From Nocardioides sp. Root140 (GTDB lineage Bacteria; Actinomycetota; Actinomycetes; Propionibacteriales; Nocardioidaceae): a DNA stretch of 64,000 bases. Below, piece by piece: positions 1,054 to 25,800 of the stretch; the first letter of the stretch is position 1, and every line of letters starts with the position of its first letter. The notes beneath the pieces are model-generated. The model ran no database searches. It was not told the DNA's origin and saw only the letters and a program-made list of their open reading frames with translations. The position numbers were made by a program, and so were the translations under genes. The stretch covers positions 310,001-374,000 of the forward strand of contig NZ_LMFI01000001.1 in NCBI RefSeq assembly GCF_001426745.1, given 5' to 3'.

Positions 1054-2549
1054 GCACCGACACGTTGCTGTCCTTCGAGGAGTCCCTCGAGAAGTTCGAC
1101 CCGGCGATGGGCCTCGAGGTCCACGTCGAGCTGAACACCAACACCAAGATGTTCTGCGGCTGCCCGGCCGTGTTCGGCGGAGAGCCCAACAGCCAGGTCT
1201 GCCCGACCTGCCTGGGCCTGCCCGGCGCGATGCCGGTGGTCAACGCCAAGGCCGTCGAGTCGGCGATGCGCATCGGCCTCGCGCTGAACTGCGAGATCGC
1301 CGAGTGGTGCCGCTTCGCGCGCAAGAACTACTTCTACCCGGACATGCCGAAGAACTTCCAGACCTCGCAGTACGACGAGCCGATCGCGTTCGAGGGCTAC
1401 CTCGACGTCGAGCTCGAGGGGGGCGAGATCGTGCGCGTCGAGATCGAGCGCGCCCACATGGAGGAGGACACCGGCAAGTCGCTGCACGTCGGTGGAGCCA
1501 CCGGGCGCATCCACGGCGCCGACCACTCGCTGGTCGACTACAACCGGGCCGGCATCCCCCTGATCGAGATCGTCACCAAGCCGATCATGGGCTCACGGGA
1601 GAAGGCCCCCGAGGTGGCCAAGGCGTACGTCGCGCAGCTGCGTGAGCTGATCGTGGCCCTGGGTGTCTCCGATGCCCGCATGGACCAGGGCTCGATCCGC
1701 GCCGACGTGAACCTGTCGCTGGCCCCGGTCGGCACCGGCTCGCTCGGCACCCGCACCGAGACGAAGAACGTGAACTCGCTGCGCTCGGTCGAGCGTGCGG
1801 TCCGCTACGAGATGCAGCGTCACGCCGCGATCCTCGACGGGGGTGGCTCGATCCTGCAGGAGACCCGGCACTGGCACGAGGACACCGGCGTCACGACCAG
1901 CGGTCGCCCGAAGTCCGACGCCGACGACTACCGCTACTTCCCCGAGCCCGACCTGGTGCCGGTGGCGCCGTCGCGTGAGTGGGTCGAGGAGCTCAAGGGC
2001 ACCCTGCCCGAGCTGCCCCGCGAGAAGCGCGGCCGCCTGCAGAAGGAGTGGGGCTTCTCCGACCTCGAGATGCGCGACACCGTCGGTGCCGGAGCGCTCG
2101 GGCTGGTCGAGGAGACCATCGCCGCCGGTGCCTCACCGCAGTCGGCGCGCAAGTGGTGGCTCTCCGAGCTGGCCCGCCGTGCCAATGACTCGGGCCAGGA
2201 GATCGCCGATCTGGGCGTGACACCTGCCGACGTTGCCGCCGTACAAGCCCTGGTGGACGCCGGCTCGCTCAACGACAAGCTGGCCCGCCAGGTCTTCGAC
2301 GGCCTGATCGCCGGCGAGGGCACCCCCGCCGAGATCGTCGCCGCCCGTGGCCTCGCCATCGTCTCCGACGACGGTGCCCTGGGTGCCGCCGTCGACAAGG
2401 CGATCGAGGCCAACCCCGACGTCGCCGACAAGATCCGCGACGGCAAGGTCGCCGCCGCCGGTGCCCTCATCGGCGCGGTGATGAAGGAGATGCGCGGTCA
2501 GGCCGACGCCGGCCGGGTCCGCGAGCTCATCATCGAAAAGCTCACCTGA
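1050..2549 (+). CDS. gatB: Glutamyl-tRNA(Gln)/aspartyl-tRNA(Asn) amidotransferase subunit B
   Basis: This is the tRNA-binding and kinase-like subunit of GatCAB, which activates the misacylated tRNA before transamidation. The 499-residue product begins [12 protein letters not shown], followed by the family signature [18 protein letters not shown] and [11 protein letters not shown], with the C-terminal helical/YqeY-like tail. The length is normal. The frame is open further upstream to 936, but the ATG at 1050 is chosen because it gives the usual N-terminus and forms an ATGA overlap with gatA. Immediately after the stop lies an array of AACCGTGG repeats. Confidence 0.97.
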
Positions 2550-2611
2550 CCAACCGTGGGTTCTTGATGCGCGAACCGTGCATCCTTGCGTCGCCAACCG
2601 TGGGTTCTTGA
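2550..2611 (+). repeat. Array of AACCGTGG-type intergenic repeats, left part
   Basis: Three units of about 22 bp follow the gatB stop: CCAACCGTGGGTTCTTGA at 2550-2567, a diverged GAACCGTGCATCCTTGCG at 2573-2590, and again CCAACCGTGGGTTCTTGA at 2594-2611. The same unit recurs at 3575-3638, 25671-25800 and 59789-59853. The third unit is the left arm of a hairpin whose right arm (3575-3592) is now separated from it by an insertion element. Confidence 0.85.
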
Positions 2612-2702
2612 TTTCAGGCTCTTCACAATCGAGGGTGTAGTTGGGGTCGGAAGCCGCCGAAGAGCCCAAAAATAGCCCCGGTGCGAGGGTCGGCCCGCGT
2701 GC

Positions 2703-2708
2703 TATGTT
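2703..2708 (+). promoter_or_regulatory. -10 hexamer for a leaderless DinB transcript
   Basis: TATGTT ends six bases before the ATG at 2715, the geometry expected for an actinobacterial leaderless mRNA starting at the start codon. It lies inside the insertion element, so the passenger carries its own promoter. Confidence 0.5.
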
Positions 2709-2714
2709 CCGGCC

Positions 2715-3224
2715 ATGACTAGACCGGGTGAGATCCTCGGCAGCGTGGTCGCCGCCAGCGAGCGCGAGCAGCTCGAGACGTTCCTGGATTATCTGCGCGA
2801 CGCCGTCGTGCGCAAGGCCCGCGGGGTGTCGGAGGAGGACGCGCGGCGCAGCCCGGTGCCGACCGGCACCAACCTCGGCGGCCTGATCAAACACCTGCGG
2901 TGGGTGGAACTGGGCGGGTTCGCCGAGCAGATCGGGCAGATCCCCGCCGCGGAGCTGCCCACGCCGCCGTGGACCGACGCAGACCCGGAGGCCGACCTGC
3001 GGCTGGAGCCGAACGAGAAGCTCGACGACGTCATCGCCGCCTACCAGGCGGAGTGCGACCGCTCCCGCGAGATCGCCGCCCAGCACAACCTCGACTACGC
3101 CGTCATCACACCGCGGGGCAGGGAACTGACGTGGATGTACCTGCACGTGATCGTGGAGACCGCCCGGCACGCGGGCCACGCGGACATCCTGCGCGAGATG
3201 ATCGACGGCAGCGTCGGCGACTGA
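2715..3224 (+). CDS. DinB-family (DUF664, mycothiol-transferase-like) protein
   Basis: This 169-residue helical protein belongs to the DinB/DUF664 superfamily, whose members are metal-dependent thiol transferases or of unknown function. Visible features are the N-terminal REQLETFLDYLRDAVV helix, the histidine in LGGLIKHLRWVE, and the C-terminal MYLHVIVETARHAGHADILRE, which supplies the usual histidine pair of the metal site. Length is typical. No Shine-Dalgarno sequence precedes the ATG; a TATGTT box lies six bases upstream instead. The gene sits entirely inside an ISL3-type element, so it was probably carried in as a passenger. Its substrate cannot be told from sequence. A role in thiol-dependent detoxification would fit the family but is inference. 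Confidence 0.85.
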   Translation: MTRPGEILGSVVAASEREQLETFLDYLRDAVVRKARGVSEEDARRSPVPTGTNLGGLIKHLRWVELGGFAEQIGQIPAAELPTPPWTDADPEADLRLEPNEKLDDVIAAYQAECDRSREIAAQHNLDYAVITPRGRELTWMYLHVIVETARHAGHADILREMIDGSVGD

Positions 3225-3275
3225 CGGCTCGCGGCGCGTCGTCGGTCCGTGTTCCGGGTCGTCGGAGGCGGCGTT

Positions 3276-3509
3276 ACAACGGTATCGACGGAGGCTGACC
3301 TCCAACACCGTGGGCCGCCACCCGAACGGCTCGTGCGCCAACCGCCGGACCACCGTGTCCCTGGCCGCGCCAGGGCATCCGCAGCGACGACACCATCTGT
3401 CGGGCTCGACAACCCGGCACCGGAGAATCGCCCGATCGGGCTCCAGCCGCTGCCCGAGCACTTCGAGCCCGAGATCATGGTCACCCCCATCCTCGGGAGA
3501 CCTCGACCC
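3276..3509 (-). pseudogene. ISL3-family transposase remnant, N-terminal zinc finger only
   Basis: The minus-strand frame encodes LGQRLEPDRAILRCRV, a CRRCGC zinc-binding cluster, RRLAHEPFGWRPT and RRYRC. This is the N-terminal DNA-binding region of ISL3-family transposases. Homology stops abruptly after RRYRC near 3276, and the downstream frame runs into the DinB gene antisense, so the helix-turn-helix and DDE catalytic domains are gone. About 62-78 residues remain of a protein usually above 400. The remnant is close to one terminal repeat, in the expected position for the transposase 5' end. The exact start cannot be fixed; a stop lies just beyond 3509. Confidence 0.75.
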
Positions 3510-3574
3510 CTACCCGGCCACCGACGCGCCGACCGGACTACACCCTCAACTGCGAAGAGCCTGATTTCAGCACA

Positions 3575-3638
3575 TCAAGAACTCACGGTTGGGCGCGCAA
3601 CAACCCACGGTTCGCGCATCAAAAGCACGCGGCTCGCG
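3575..3638 (-). repeat. Array of AACCGTGG-type repeats, right part
   Basis: Reverse-oriented units: the complement of CCAACCGTGAGTTCTTGA at 3575-3592 (17 of 18 identical to the arm at 2594-2611), then AACCCACGGTTCGCG around 3601-3615 and a diverged copy at 3618-3638 that abuts the stop of the sugar dehydrogenase gene. Before the insertion these units would have lain between the convergent gatB and dehydrogenase genes. Confidence 0.8.
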
Positions 3639-4784
3639 TCAGGAGGGGGAGACGACGAGGATGCGGTCGTCGGCCTCGGCCGGATCACCGCGACCGTCAC
3701 GGTTGGACGTGGTCAGCCACAGGTTGCCGTCGGGAGCGAGTACGACGGTGCGCAGCCGGCCGTACTTCCCGACGAAGAAGTCGGTCGGGTCGCTCGCGAC
3801 ACCGTCCTCGACCTTCACCCGCCACAGGCGTTCACCGCGCAGCGAGGCCATCCACAAGAAGCCGTCCGCCCAGGCCAGTCCGGACGGTGAGGCGTCACTG
3901 GTGCGCCAGACCACCTGCGGGTCGGTGTAGTCGGGGGCGCCGCCGGATCCCTCGAAGAGCGGCCAGCCGTAGTTGGCGCCCTTCTCGATCCGGTTCAGCT
4001 CGTCGAAGGCCTGGGAGCCGAACTCACTGGCCCACAGCTGCCGATCGGAGTCGAAGGCCAGACCCTGCACGTTGCGGTGCCCGGTCGACCAGATCGGCGA
4101 CGACGGGTCGGGGTTGCCCGGCGCCGGCTTGCCCTCGGGGGTGATCCGCAGGATCTTGCCGCCCAGTGCGTCCGGGTCCTGCGCCATGTCCTGGTCGCCG
4201 GTCTCGCCCGTGGAGACGTAGAGGTTGCCGTCGGGCCCGAACACCAGGCGGCCGCCGTCGTGGATGAACCCGTTCGGGATGCCGGTCAGGATCGGCTCGG
4301 TCGCTCCCAGCGTGCTCCCGTCGTACGACGCCCGCACCACCCTGTTGTCCGTCGGGGTCGAGACGTAGAAGTACAACGTGGAGTCGGTGGCGAAGTCGGG
4401 GGAGACCGCGACCCCGAGCAGCCCGGCCTCCTCACGTGGATCGGCCTCGTCGATCACGCCGATCTCACGGGTGCGGCCACTCGAGACCACCAGGACCCGC
4501 CGGGAGTCACGCTCGGTGACGACGGCGTCGCCGTTCGGCAGGAAGTCCAGGCCCCACGGGGCCTCCAGCCCGGTCGCGACCGTGTCGACGACGCGGACCC
4601 CGTCCGCCGACGCGGAGGGACGGGGCTTGCCGGTGAGCACGGGATCCGTCGGACCAGTCCCGGTCGATCCGTCGCCCGAAGGCTGGGCCGGCACCTGTGG
4701 CGTCGACTGCGGGTCGCCGTCGTCCTCGGAGGAACAGGCGGTCAACGCCACCGAAACCATCAGGAGCGACGCCACCAGCCTCAT
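3639..4784 (-). CDS. PQQ-dependent sugar dehydrogenase (glucose/sorbosone dehydrogenase fold), lipoprotein
   Basis: This is an exported beta-propeller protein of the soluble glucose dehydrogenase / GSDH family, predicted to oxidise sugars or related alcohols outside the membrane with PQQ or a related cofactor. The 381 residues start with a lipoprotein signal (MRLVASLLMVSVALTAC; lipid-modified Cys17), then a Ser/Thr/Pro linker, then the domain with ATGLEAPWGLDFLPNGDAVV, FIHDGGRLVFGPDGNLYVSTG, HRNVQGLAF and NYGWPLFEG, all typical of the family. No PQQ synthesis genes are in the window, and many actinobacterial members have no proven cofactor. A TACAGT box lies eight bases upstream of the start. 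Its 3' end meets the repeat array at 3638. Confidence 0.88.
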   Translation of the reverse strand: MRLVASLLMVSVALTACSSEDDGDPQSTPQVPAQPSGDGSTGTGPTDPVLTGKPRPSASADGVRVVDTVATGLEAPWGLDFLPNGDAVVTERDSRRVLVVSSGRTREIGVIDEADPREEAGLLGVAVSPDFATDSTLYFYVSTPTDNRVVRASYDGSTLGATEPILTGIPNGFIHDGGRLVFGPDGNLYVSTGETGDQDMAQDPDALGGKILRITPEGKPAPGNPDPSSPIWSTGHRNVQGLAFDSDRQLWASEFGSQAFDELNRIEKGANYGWPLFEGSGGAPDYTDPQVVWRTSDASPSGLAWADGFLWMASLRGERLWRVKVEDGVASDPTDFFVGKYGRLRTVVLAPDGNLWLTTSNRDGRGDPAEADDRILVVSPS

Positions 4785-4827
4785 GTCAGAAGACTGTAGG
4801 GCACCACGGTGAGGCCCGGGCCGGGGG

Positions 4828-5754
4828 TCAGCGCACCCGGTCGAGGAACTCCAGGAGCAGTTCGTGGAAGCGCTCCGGCTGCTCCATCGCGATGAAGTGG
4901 CTGCCGACGAGTTCGACGTACGTCGCCCCCTCGATGCGCTCCGCGGCGCTGGCCATGTCGCGTGGGCCGGCGAGCAGGTCCCACTTGGCGGCGACGAACG
5001 CGGTCGGCACGTCGATCCGACTGAGCGAGACCCGGCCGTGAGCGGCCGTGGTGAGCGCGAGGTGGAAGTACCAGTCGATCGGCGTGGTGAGGTATTCGCG
5101 GATCGCCTTCGCCGCGAGCTCCGGGTCGGCGACCGGGAACATGAAGCCGCTGTGGCTGACCAGGCTCACTGCCTTCTGCCCGATCGGCAGCCGCTTGGCG
5201 ATCGGCGTGATCGCCTTGCCCGTTGCGGCGACCACGCGCGCCAGGTTGACCGTCAGGGCGCGCGCCACAGGCTTGGGAAGGTGCAGAGGAGCCAGCATCG
5301 TCGAGAAGGTCGCCCCGGGCACACCGGCGTACGCGAACAGCCCCGACACCCGCTCCGGGTGGCGTACGGCGAGCTCGAACATCGTGTTCACGCCCATCGA
5401 CCAGCCCAGCAGCACGGCCTTGTCGAGGCCGACGTGGTCCATCACCGCGACGGCGTCCTCGACGAAATGCTCAATGCCGACGTGCTTGCGGTCGGCGGGA
5501 CGTGCGGAGCCGCCGGTGCCGCGGTGGTTCCAGGACACGACGCGTACGCCGGACCCGGGCCGCAGCAACGACGGCGTGGTCCACGGGTTGGTGCCCAGGC
5601 CGTTGCAGAGCACGACCGTCGGGCCGTCGATCAGGCAGTCGGGGTCGTTGGTCCAGGCGCGCAGGAGCGTGCCGTCCGCGGACTCGACGTCGAAGAAGTA
5701 GACCGACGGGGTCGCGCTGTCGATCGTGCTTTCAGGTTGGGCGATGGCAGCCAT
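4828..5754 (-). CDS. Alpha/beta-fold hydrolase
   Basis: This is a cytoplasmic alpha/beta hydrolase of 308 residues and unknown substrate. The nucleophile elbow is GWSMG (Ser119), the oxyanion region is CNGLGTNPWTTPSLL, and the acid and histidine are most likely the Asp in AAKWDLLAGP and the His in LVGSHFIAMEQPERF. There is no signal peptide. Related proteins are annotated as esterases, epoxide-hydrolase-like enzymes or fatty-acid-related hydrolases in actinobacteria, and nothing here separates them. The gene follows the sugar dehydrogenase on the same strand by 43 bases in reverse order, but no functional link is evident. Confidence 0.88.
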   Translation of the reverse strand: MAAIAQPESTIDSATPSVYFFDVESADGTLLRAWTNDPDCLIDGPTVVLCNGLGTNPWTTPSLLRPGSGVRVVSWNHRGTGGSARPADRKHVGIEHFVEDAVAVMDHVGLDKAVLLGWSMGVNTMFELAVRHPERVSGLFAYAGVPGATFSTMLAPLHLPKPVARALTVNLARVVAATGKAITPIAKRLPIGQKAVSLVSHSGFMFPVADPELAAKAIREYLTTPIDWYFHLALTTAAHGRVSLSRIDVPTAFVAAKWDLLAGPRDMASAAERIEGATYVELVGSHFIAMEQPERFHELLLEFLDRVR

Positions 5755-5808
5755 GAGGAGGATTGTTCACCAGGCCGGCCCGCCCGTGCGGGAGATGTGA
5801 CCGAGCCC

Positions 5809-5991
5809 TCAGCCGTGGGCGGCCACGACCCGGGTCGGATAGCGGGCGGCGAAGAACTCATCGACCTCGAGGACTTCGGCGCGGTGCTTCGCCAGGGTGG
5901 TGCAGGCGAGCATGGCGTTGCGGCGGGCGGTGGACTGGGACCGGACGGCCCAGTCGTCAAGCAGGTTCCGGACAGTGCGCAGGGGATTCAT
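5809..5991 (-). CDS. Small uncharacterised protein (60 aa)
   Basis: This short minus-strand frame encodes MNPLRTVRNLLDDWAVRSQS followed by a mostly helical Ala/Arg/Glu-rich segment (RRNAMLACTTLAKHRAEVLEV) and a tail ending VVAAHG. The frame extends upstream to 6189, but the upstream part has the Arg-rich look of non-coding GC-rich sequence, so the ATG at 5991 is preferred. It lies between two minus-strand genes. Similar short helical proteins occur in actinobacteria (my recollection), but I recognise no function. Confidence 0.55.
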   Translation of the reverse strand: MNPLRTVRNLLDDWAVRSQSTARRNAMLACTTLAKHRAEVLEVDEFFAARYPTRVVAAHG

Positions 5992-25670: not shown

Positions 25671-25800
25671 GCGCCAACCGCGTGCTCTTGATGCGCCAAC
25701 CGTGGGTTCTTGATGTCCGAACACCGGATTGTTGATCCGGTCGAGGACGACGTACGTCAAGAACCCACGGTTCGAGGCGCAAGAATCCACGGTTCGCGAT
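25671..25800. repeat. Array of AACCGTGG-type repeats between ilvC and efeU
   Basis: Two direct units (25671-25692 and 25693-25714, GCGCCAACCG...CTTGAT), one diverged unit (25715-25737), then two units in reverse orientation (25756-25774 and 25777-25798, ending CCCACGGTTCG and TCCACGGTTCG). The opposed units can fold into a hairpin after ilvC, so the array may act as its terminator. Confidence 0.85.

Follow-up and report, generated by a model that had tools for sequence, protein, structure and literature searches.

A transposase-less ISL3-type element with a DinB-superfamily cargo gene in Nocardioides sp. Root140 and its full-length relatives in other actinobacteria

Background

How does a single intact gene come to lie between the two ends of an insertion sequence (IS) that has no transposase? 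This question is raised by an ISL3-type element carrying a DinB-superfamily gene in the 64-kb stretch of Nocardioides sp. Root140 DNA analyzed here (the window). An earlier examination of the letters and translations (the sequence-only reading) had described a transposase-defective element with a DinB passenger that might move when a full-length relative supplies transposase.

ISPpu12 is a transporter IS of the ISL3 family, and mobile insertion cassettes (MICs) consist of IS ends and a passenger, without a transposase, and are mobilized by a transposase acting in trans. In excerpts of the literature, transporter IS (tIS) form a recognized class (PMC9330008), mobile insertion cassettes of the MIC231 type are named as a class (PMC3129680, PMC6542083), and ISPst2a and ISPst2b are ISL3 elements whose transposase is accompanied by an ArsR regulator and a permease (PMC6305408). 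DinB-superfamily genes are described as abundant in actinobacteria and little understood in their role (excerpt of PMC10693628).

Results

An ISL3-type element with one intact gene

The element occupies window positions 2617–3561 (945 bp) and has one intact gene inside. Its terminal inverted repeats (2617–2640 and, on the minus strand, 3538–3561; 24 bp each) agree at 21 of 24 positions, and a perfect 8-bp target duplication, TGATTTCA, flanks it at 2609–2616 and 3562–3569, both as the sequence-only reading had it. A scan of the 64-kb window for exact 8-bp direct repeats 60–3,000 bp apart, bracketing ends that agree at ≥17 of 24 positions, was passed by this TGATTTCA pair as the sole arrangement, so that chance origin is no serious option. 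The ends begin with GGCTCTTC, and those of the ISL3 element ISArsp7 start alike in a table of PMC6305408; since the ends of ISPst2, also of the ISL3 family, start differently in the same excerpted source, this start seems typical of an ISL3 subgroup.

Behind a 42-bp left end (2617–2658, plus strand) stands GAAGAGCC (2659–2666, plus), which comparison with the full-length relative L032 identifies as the final 8 bp of a former inner right end. The passenger gene follows (2715–3224, plus, 169 aa), and then an outer right end (3277–3561, minus) made of a duplicated 5′ part of the transposase gene and the terminal repeat. This transposase scrap is 78 bp shorter inside than the full gene, and a search with an intact relative's transposase placed transposase-derived sequence at 3261–3476 on the minus strand. 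In the whole genome (5.43 Mb, 99.99% complete), only the scrap matched that transposase at E ≤ 0.001, which bears out the proposed transposase loss, and no second copy of the element was found.

Full-length relatives in other genomes

Scanning a genome collection (genome_contigs) with the DinB protein gave 121 stretches that matched the peptide pattern, 33 of which encode relatives, a lower bound because the patterns were exact. All but one of these proteins are 83–99% identical to the window DinB, the other being that of Thermocrispum (L062; 67% identity, without IS ends). Several genomes hold a complete form of ~2.3 kb, with different 8-bp duplications, in the order left end, transposase, inner right end, dinB, and second right end. 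The full element of Murinocardiopsis flavida (L032; 2,324 bp, duplication CGACAAGG), our reference, has a left end, a minus-strand ISL3 transposase frame of 454 aa, a right end, dinB, and a second right end with the transposase 5′ part. Its transposase matches PF01610 (7.7e-56) and NF033550 (2.6e-108), so that the assignment to the ISL3 type holds: L032 has the ISL3-type DDE transposase missing from the window copy, and the window copy, like 6 of 13 two-ended loci, shows the exact 8-bp duplication of the family.

The window copy equals reference positions 1–42 joined to 1421–2324 at window position 2658/2659. The deletion thus took 1,378 bp, starting directly behind the left end and sparing the final 8 bp of the inner right end. 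Identity to L032 is 100% over the 42 bp of the left end and 98.7% over the 904-bp cassette, and the dinB part of L035, from a third order, is 97.8% identical to the window unit. Both ends match this one full-length element and belong to the same lineage. The sequence-only reading had asked for full-length relatives and further DinB copies, and these exist, with the DinB passenger as mobile cargo that has ends and duplications of its own. It was also right about the presence of transposase-derived sequence and mistaken in seeing in it what was left of the lost gene, because intact copies carry the same scrap, likewise 78 bp shorter inside, plus a whole transposase beyond dinB.

Ends around a transposase and an unrelated passenger, the arrangement of a tIS, were found in L032, L033, L034, L036, L043, L048, L049, and L052, several of them with an interrupted transposase; the window copy, without transposase, falls outside this arrangement and has the MIC structure of IS ends and passenger. 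In two Streptomyces loci (L044:4192–4959 and L047:4451–4958), a different ISL3 copy, 74–78% identical and in opposite orientation, directly abuts the dinB cassette in place of the inner right end.

These comparisons make it probable, in our judgment, that the window element is a decayed ISL3 tIS. Its ancestor would have had the intact order given above, a design that probably arose when dinB came to lie between two IS copies in the same orientation and the outer copy was cut back to its right end. The element would have reached this genome with its transposase and inserted between two convergent genes, at the tip of the hairpin that their intergenic repeats are predicted to form. An illegitimate deletion may later have removed the transposase, while the DinB cargo, whose product may use mycothiol, would have been kept for its usefulness.

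Transposase loss by several separate junctions

The perfect duplication fits either order of events, insertion then deletion or deletion then insertion, and thus also the view that this is a mobile insertion cassette, which lost its transposase before insertion and was moved here in trans as a 945-bp unit with both ends intact. Four other loci (L039, L046, L055, and L057) likewise keep both ends but hardly any transposase sequence, or none, and three of them have duplications matching at 7 of 8 positions. However, each of the four has its own junction (0–4 bp overlap, by eye), the window's junction (one shared base, by eye) was seen in no other copy examined, and no two copies with a junction read have the same one. 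Eight other sampled genomes match from query base 42 or later, without the window's joined left end, and the window genome lacks a full-length related transposase. No evidence that any deleted form itself moved was found in the copies examined, and the suggestion in the sequence-only reading of movement in trans is thus unsupported; we hold the trans-moved cassette to be unlikely. The different junctions in several deleted copies show that transposase loss recurs, and insertion with a transposase that was later lost remains our preferred reading. Two Brevibacterium loci (L060, L061), considered as possible sharers of the window's junction, have another junction in their letters and no recognizable right end.

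In internally deleted copies, the right-hand breakpoints lie near the inner right end and just short of the dinB promoter, at reference positions 1388–1425 in the window, L039, L046, L055, and L057 and at 1359–1402 in G003, L037, L038, and L058. Copies without any left end start further left, at 1044–1342 (L035, L041, L042, L050, L051, and L054), which speaks against tight clustering of breakpoints. Because the breakpoints are off the end itself and the junctions overlap by 0–4 bp only, erosion of a dead transposase up to the dinB promoter is preferred to transposase-driven deletion (abortive transposition) at the inner right end.

The cargo outlasts the transposase

The dinB frame is complete in 31/33 loci, the exceptions being L058 (frameshifted) and L053 (start displaced); L062 is counted as complete because an in-frame ATG stands just upstream of the aligned part. 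In contrast, the transposase frame is uninterrupted in 5/33 (L032, L034, L040, L043, and L052), including L040, whose alignment covers the full 454 positions although ~20 internal residues are lacking. The cargo therefore outlasts its engine. The median dN/dS of dinB, computed for this gene only, is 0.32 (411 of 528 pairs with dS 0.03–0.8, the pairs being non-independent), from 33 sequences that include the window, G025, and G003 and omit L053, L058, and L062.

If dinB were a neutral hitchhiker of an active IS, spread by the transposase alone, a patchy distribution would be no surprise, and the distribution is patchy: at E ≤ 1e-60, the cassette occurs in 6 other genomes of 390 in a sample of the order and 2 others of 393 in a sample of the class (7/391 and 3/394 with the window genome included; the samples overlap). 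Neutrality fits poorly with the outlasting of the transposase by dinB, the dN/dS of 0.32, and right-hand breakpoints that stop just short of the dinB promoter, and we consider it improbable. A decayed tIS with a cargo retained for its usefulness would account for the same data.

Ends, hosts, and vehicles

Both ends are present in 13 of the 33 loci, one in 12, and neither in 8, with some missing ends explained by contig edges. The duplications of the two-ended loci are exact over 8 bp in 6 (all different), match at 7/8 in 3, and are slipped by one base in L036 and L058; L043 and L057 have no recognizable duplication. Close DinB relatives are scattered across at least six actinobacterial orders: the seven species looked up belong to Streptosporangiales, Micrococcales, Propionibacteriales, Pseudonocardiales, Jiangellales, and Kitasatosporales. 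With its counterpart in another order, the cassette shares 98.7% identity, whereas the gatB of the window genome and that of its congener G003 agree at 88% over 607 bp; we read this as recent acquisition of the cassette by horizontal transfer.

Candidate vehicles were tried and rejected. A pattern scan of viral contigs (viral_contigs) matched 18 stretches, none of which was confirmed as a DinB relative, and DinB protein matches stayed below 60% identity in all 167 plasmid records. Phage DNA matches were right-end or transposase pieces in 3 of 5 records and pieces shorter than 70 bp in the other 2. In the plasmids (20 of 60 records, among the matches listed), the DNA matches are right-end or transposase pieces, of plain ISL3 elements of the ISPfr2/IS204 group whose right end and transposase 5′ part are 67–78% identical; unlike the window element, the plasmid and phage matches of this group have no dinB cargo.

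The insertion site, a predicted repeat hairpin

A long hairpin, predicted to form from 22-nt repeats between two convergent genes (936–2549 and 3639–4784), has the element at its tip. We take the genes to be gatB and a PQQ-type sugar dehydrogenase gene, and the element leaves both uninterrupted. The left half of the target array follows the gatB-like gene at 2550–2612, the right, inverted half lies at 3570–3640, and the array rejoined without the element has a predicted fold of −85.5 kcal/mol. Allowing up to 3 mismatches, the genome contains 142 copies of the unit (~AACCGTGGATTCTTGATGCGCG), 68 on the plus and 74 on the minus strand, against 1 for the reversed control. The copies form tandem and inverted arrays, several of which stand directly after stop codons (by eye); a further window array is at 25676–25794. 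In G003, repeats but no dinB lie between the equivalent two genes, and the dinB cassette of that genome is located elsewhere; this gap (L075:608–829) contains arrays of a different 22-nt unit, GCGAACGGGCAGTTATTGCTGC, with a predicted fold of −140.7 kcal/mol, so that unit length and position are kept and the sequence is changed.

A resident chromosomal dinB that two unrelated ISL3 ends happen to flank, a reading for which no support was found, is refuted by the full-length relatives and has a negligible chance of being correct, given that the unit recurs in other orders (L032, 98.6% DNA identity; L035, 97.8% over the dinB part), that L032 is among the loci where it has duplications of its own, that both ends match one full-length element, and that the G003 gap has no dinB. 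Neither of the two findings that would have refuted the sequence-only reading was made: the ends are of one lineage, and dinB is absent from this site in G003.

The DinB protein

The reported DinB/DUF664 gene is complete: ORF 2715–3224 matches PF04978 (MST, a family that takes its name from mycothiol-S-transferases) with E 3.9e-41 and 141.4 bits against a gathering cut-off of 27, and also DinB_2 (E 1.6e-8). Among the candidate metal-binding histidines, H60, H144, and H155 are invariant in 18/18 aligned proteins, and H152 is found in ≥90%. TATGTT at 2703–2708 (plus strand) ends 6 nt upstream of the ATG, and TATGTT or TACGTT stands at the corresponding position in 26 of 33 database loci (by eye), so that a −10 element of a leaderless dinB promoter is plausible from this conserved upstream stretch.

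Mycothiol is an actinobacterial thiol. The two best fold matches of a weak structure model (mean pLDDT 64) are M. tuberculosis mycothiol-S-transferases (8fx9, 8f5v; best E 5.1e-3); because the model is weak, with no fold match at E ≤ 0.001, this likeness is no more than supportive, and no solved-structure sequence matching the protein was found. In the excerpted PMC10693628, mycothiol-S-transferases come under DUF664, and ClbS, which confers resistance to colibactin and lacks the usual metal site, is a DinB-superfamily member. On the PF04978 naming, this literature, and the two fold matches, we tentatively predict mycothiol-dependent neutralization of an electrophile, a function we would put a little short of an even prospect; the protein would use mycothiol to conjugate or otherwise neutralize an electrophilic toxicant.

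A doubled right end and a second cargo

Most dinB-type copies that keep the inner right end have an extra CTGCGA before GAAGAGCC. The same doubled-end layout carries a second cargo, an AraC/DJ-1-type regulator and a small ORF, in the window's genus and family, and in three such copies (L031, L091, and L092) GAAGAGCC is missing from the inner right end. The L092 element (1739–5815; 4,077 bp; duplication GGTAAAGG) has a complete transposase of the ISL3 family, an inner right end lacking GAAGAGCC, the regulator (PF12833, PF01965), a 103-aa ORF without a Pfam match, and an outer right end with transposase sequence worth 37 codons. The 103-aa ORF is presumably ABM-like. Further examples are L102:1318–5394 (duplication CTCAATCG, otherwise as L092), L103:2164–5880 (no duplication seen), and L105:1791–5786 (duplication 7/8). 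Same-strand right-end pairs ~2.28 or 2.63 kb apart occur in at least 11 of 391 genomes of the order, counted from the rows listed with two candidates scored per genome, and the AraC/103-aa pair is the cargo in all four inspected (L091, L102, L103, and L105).

That the two cargoes come with inner ends altered in different ways suggests selection for the doubled-end design, perhaps since an IS whose inner end still worked could abandon its cargo. Tandem right ends in L100 and L101 were rejected as cargo elements, being neighboring or nested plain IS copies. In L101 (1364–4473), two direct-orientation ISL3 copies with equal match statistics lie 208 bp apart, and such a pair could be a sort of precursor for a doubled-end transposon.

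Discussion

The element resembles ISPst2a/b in its ISL3 family, 8-bp duplication, and passengers between the ends, and differs from them, as they appear in the excerpted source, in its cargo, which is not an ArsR regulator and a permease. The DinB cargo is placed outside the inner IS and closed by a second, truncated right end, with the inner right end altered. Like a MIC231-type cassette, the window copy has IS ends and a passenger without a transposase, while here there is one copy, and trans-mobilization and multiplication are unsupported. The protein shares with the DUF664/PF04978 thiol transferases the family model, the conserved histidines, and an actinobacterial host; the members treated in the excerpt of PMC10693628 are ordinary mycobacterial genes, whereas the window dinB is transposon cargo. 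At the level of titles, abstract beginnings, and term counts, neither DinB as IS cargo nor the doubled-end layout was found among the papers listed. The window element is probably a decayed member of a tIS lineage, a class already recognized, whose DinB cargo seems to be new and whose design doubles the right end.

More speculatively, and with real doubt, actinobacteria might share a family of ISL3 transposons in which the inner right end has been put out of action, the outer one serves instead, and the cargo always travels. These transposons might shuttle small detoxification modules, with a mycothiol-transferase-like DinB in one lineage and an AraC/DJ-1 regulator plus a small ABM-like ORF in the other, as mobile resistance to electrophilic natural products.

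Conclusions

Since dinB stays intact while the transposon decays, and changes little across orders, there is a strong hint of selectable function. The window DinB thus offers one named protein of a little-understood superfamily to which such a hint attaches. The doubled-end layout with two cargoes suggests a route from a simple IS to a cargo transposon, by way of two direct copies, one of them trimmed to its end.
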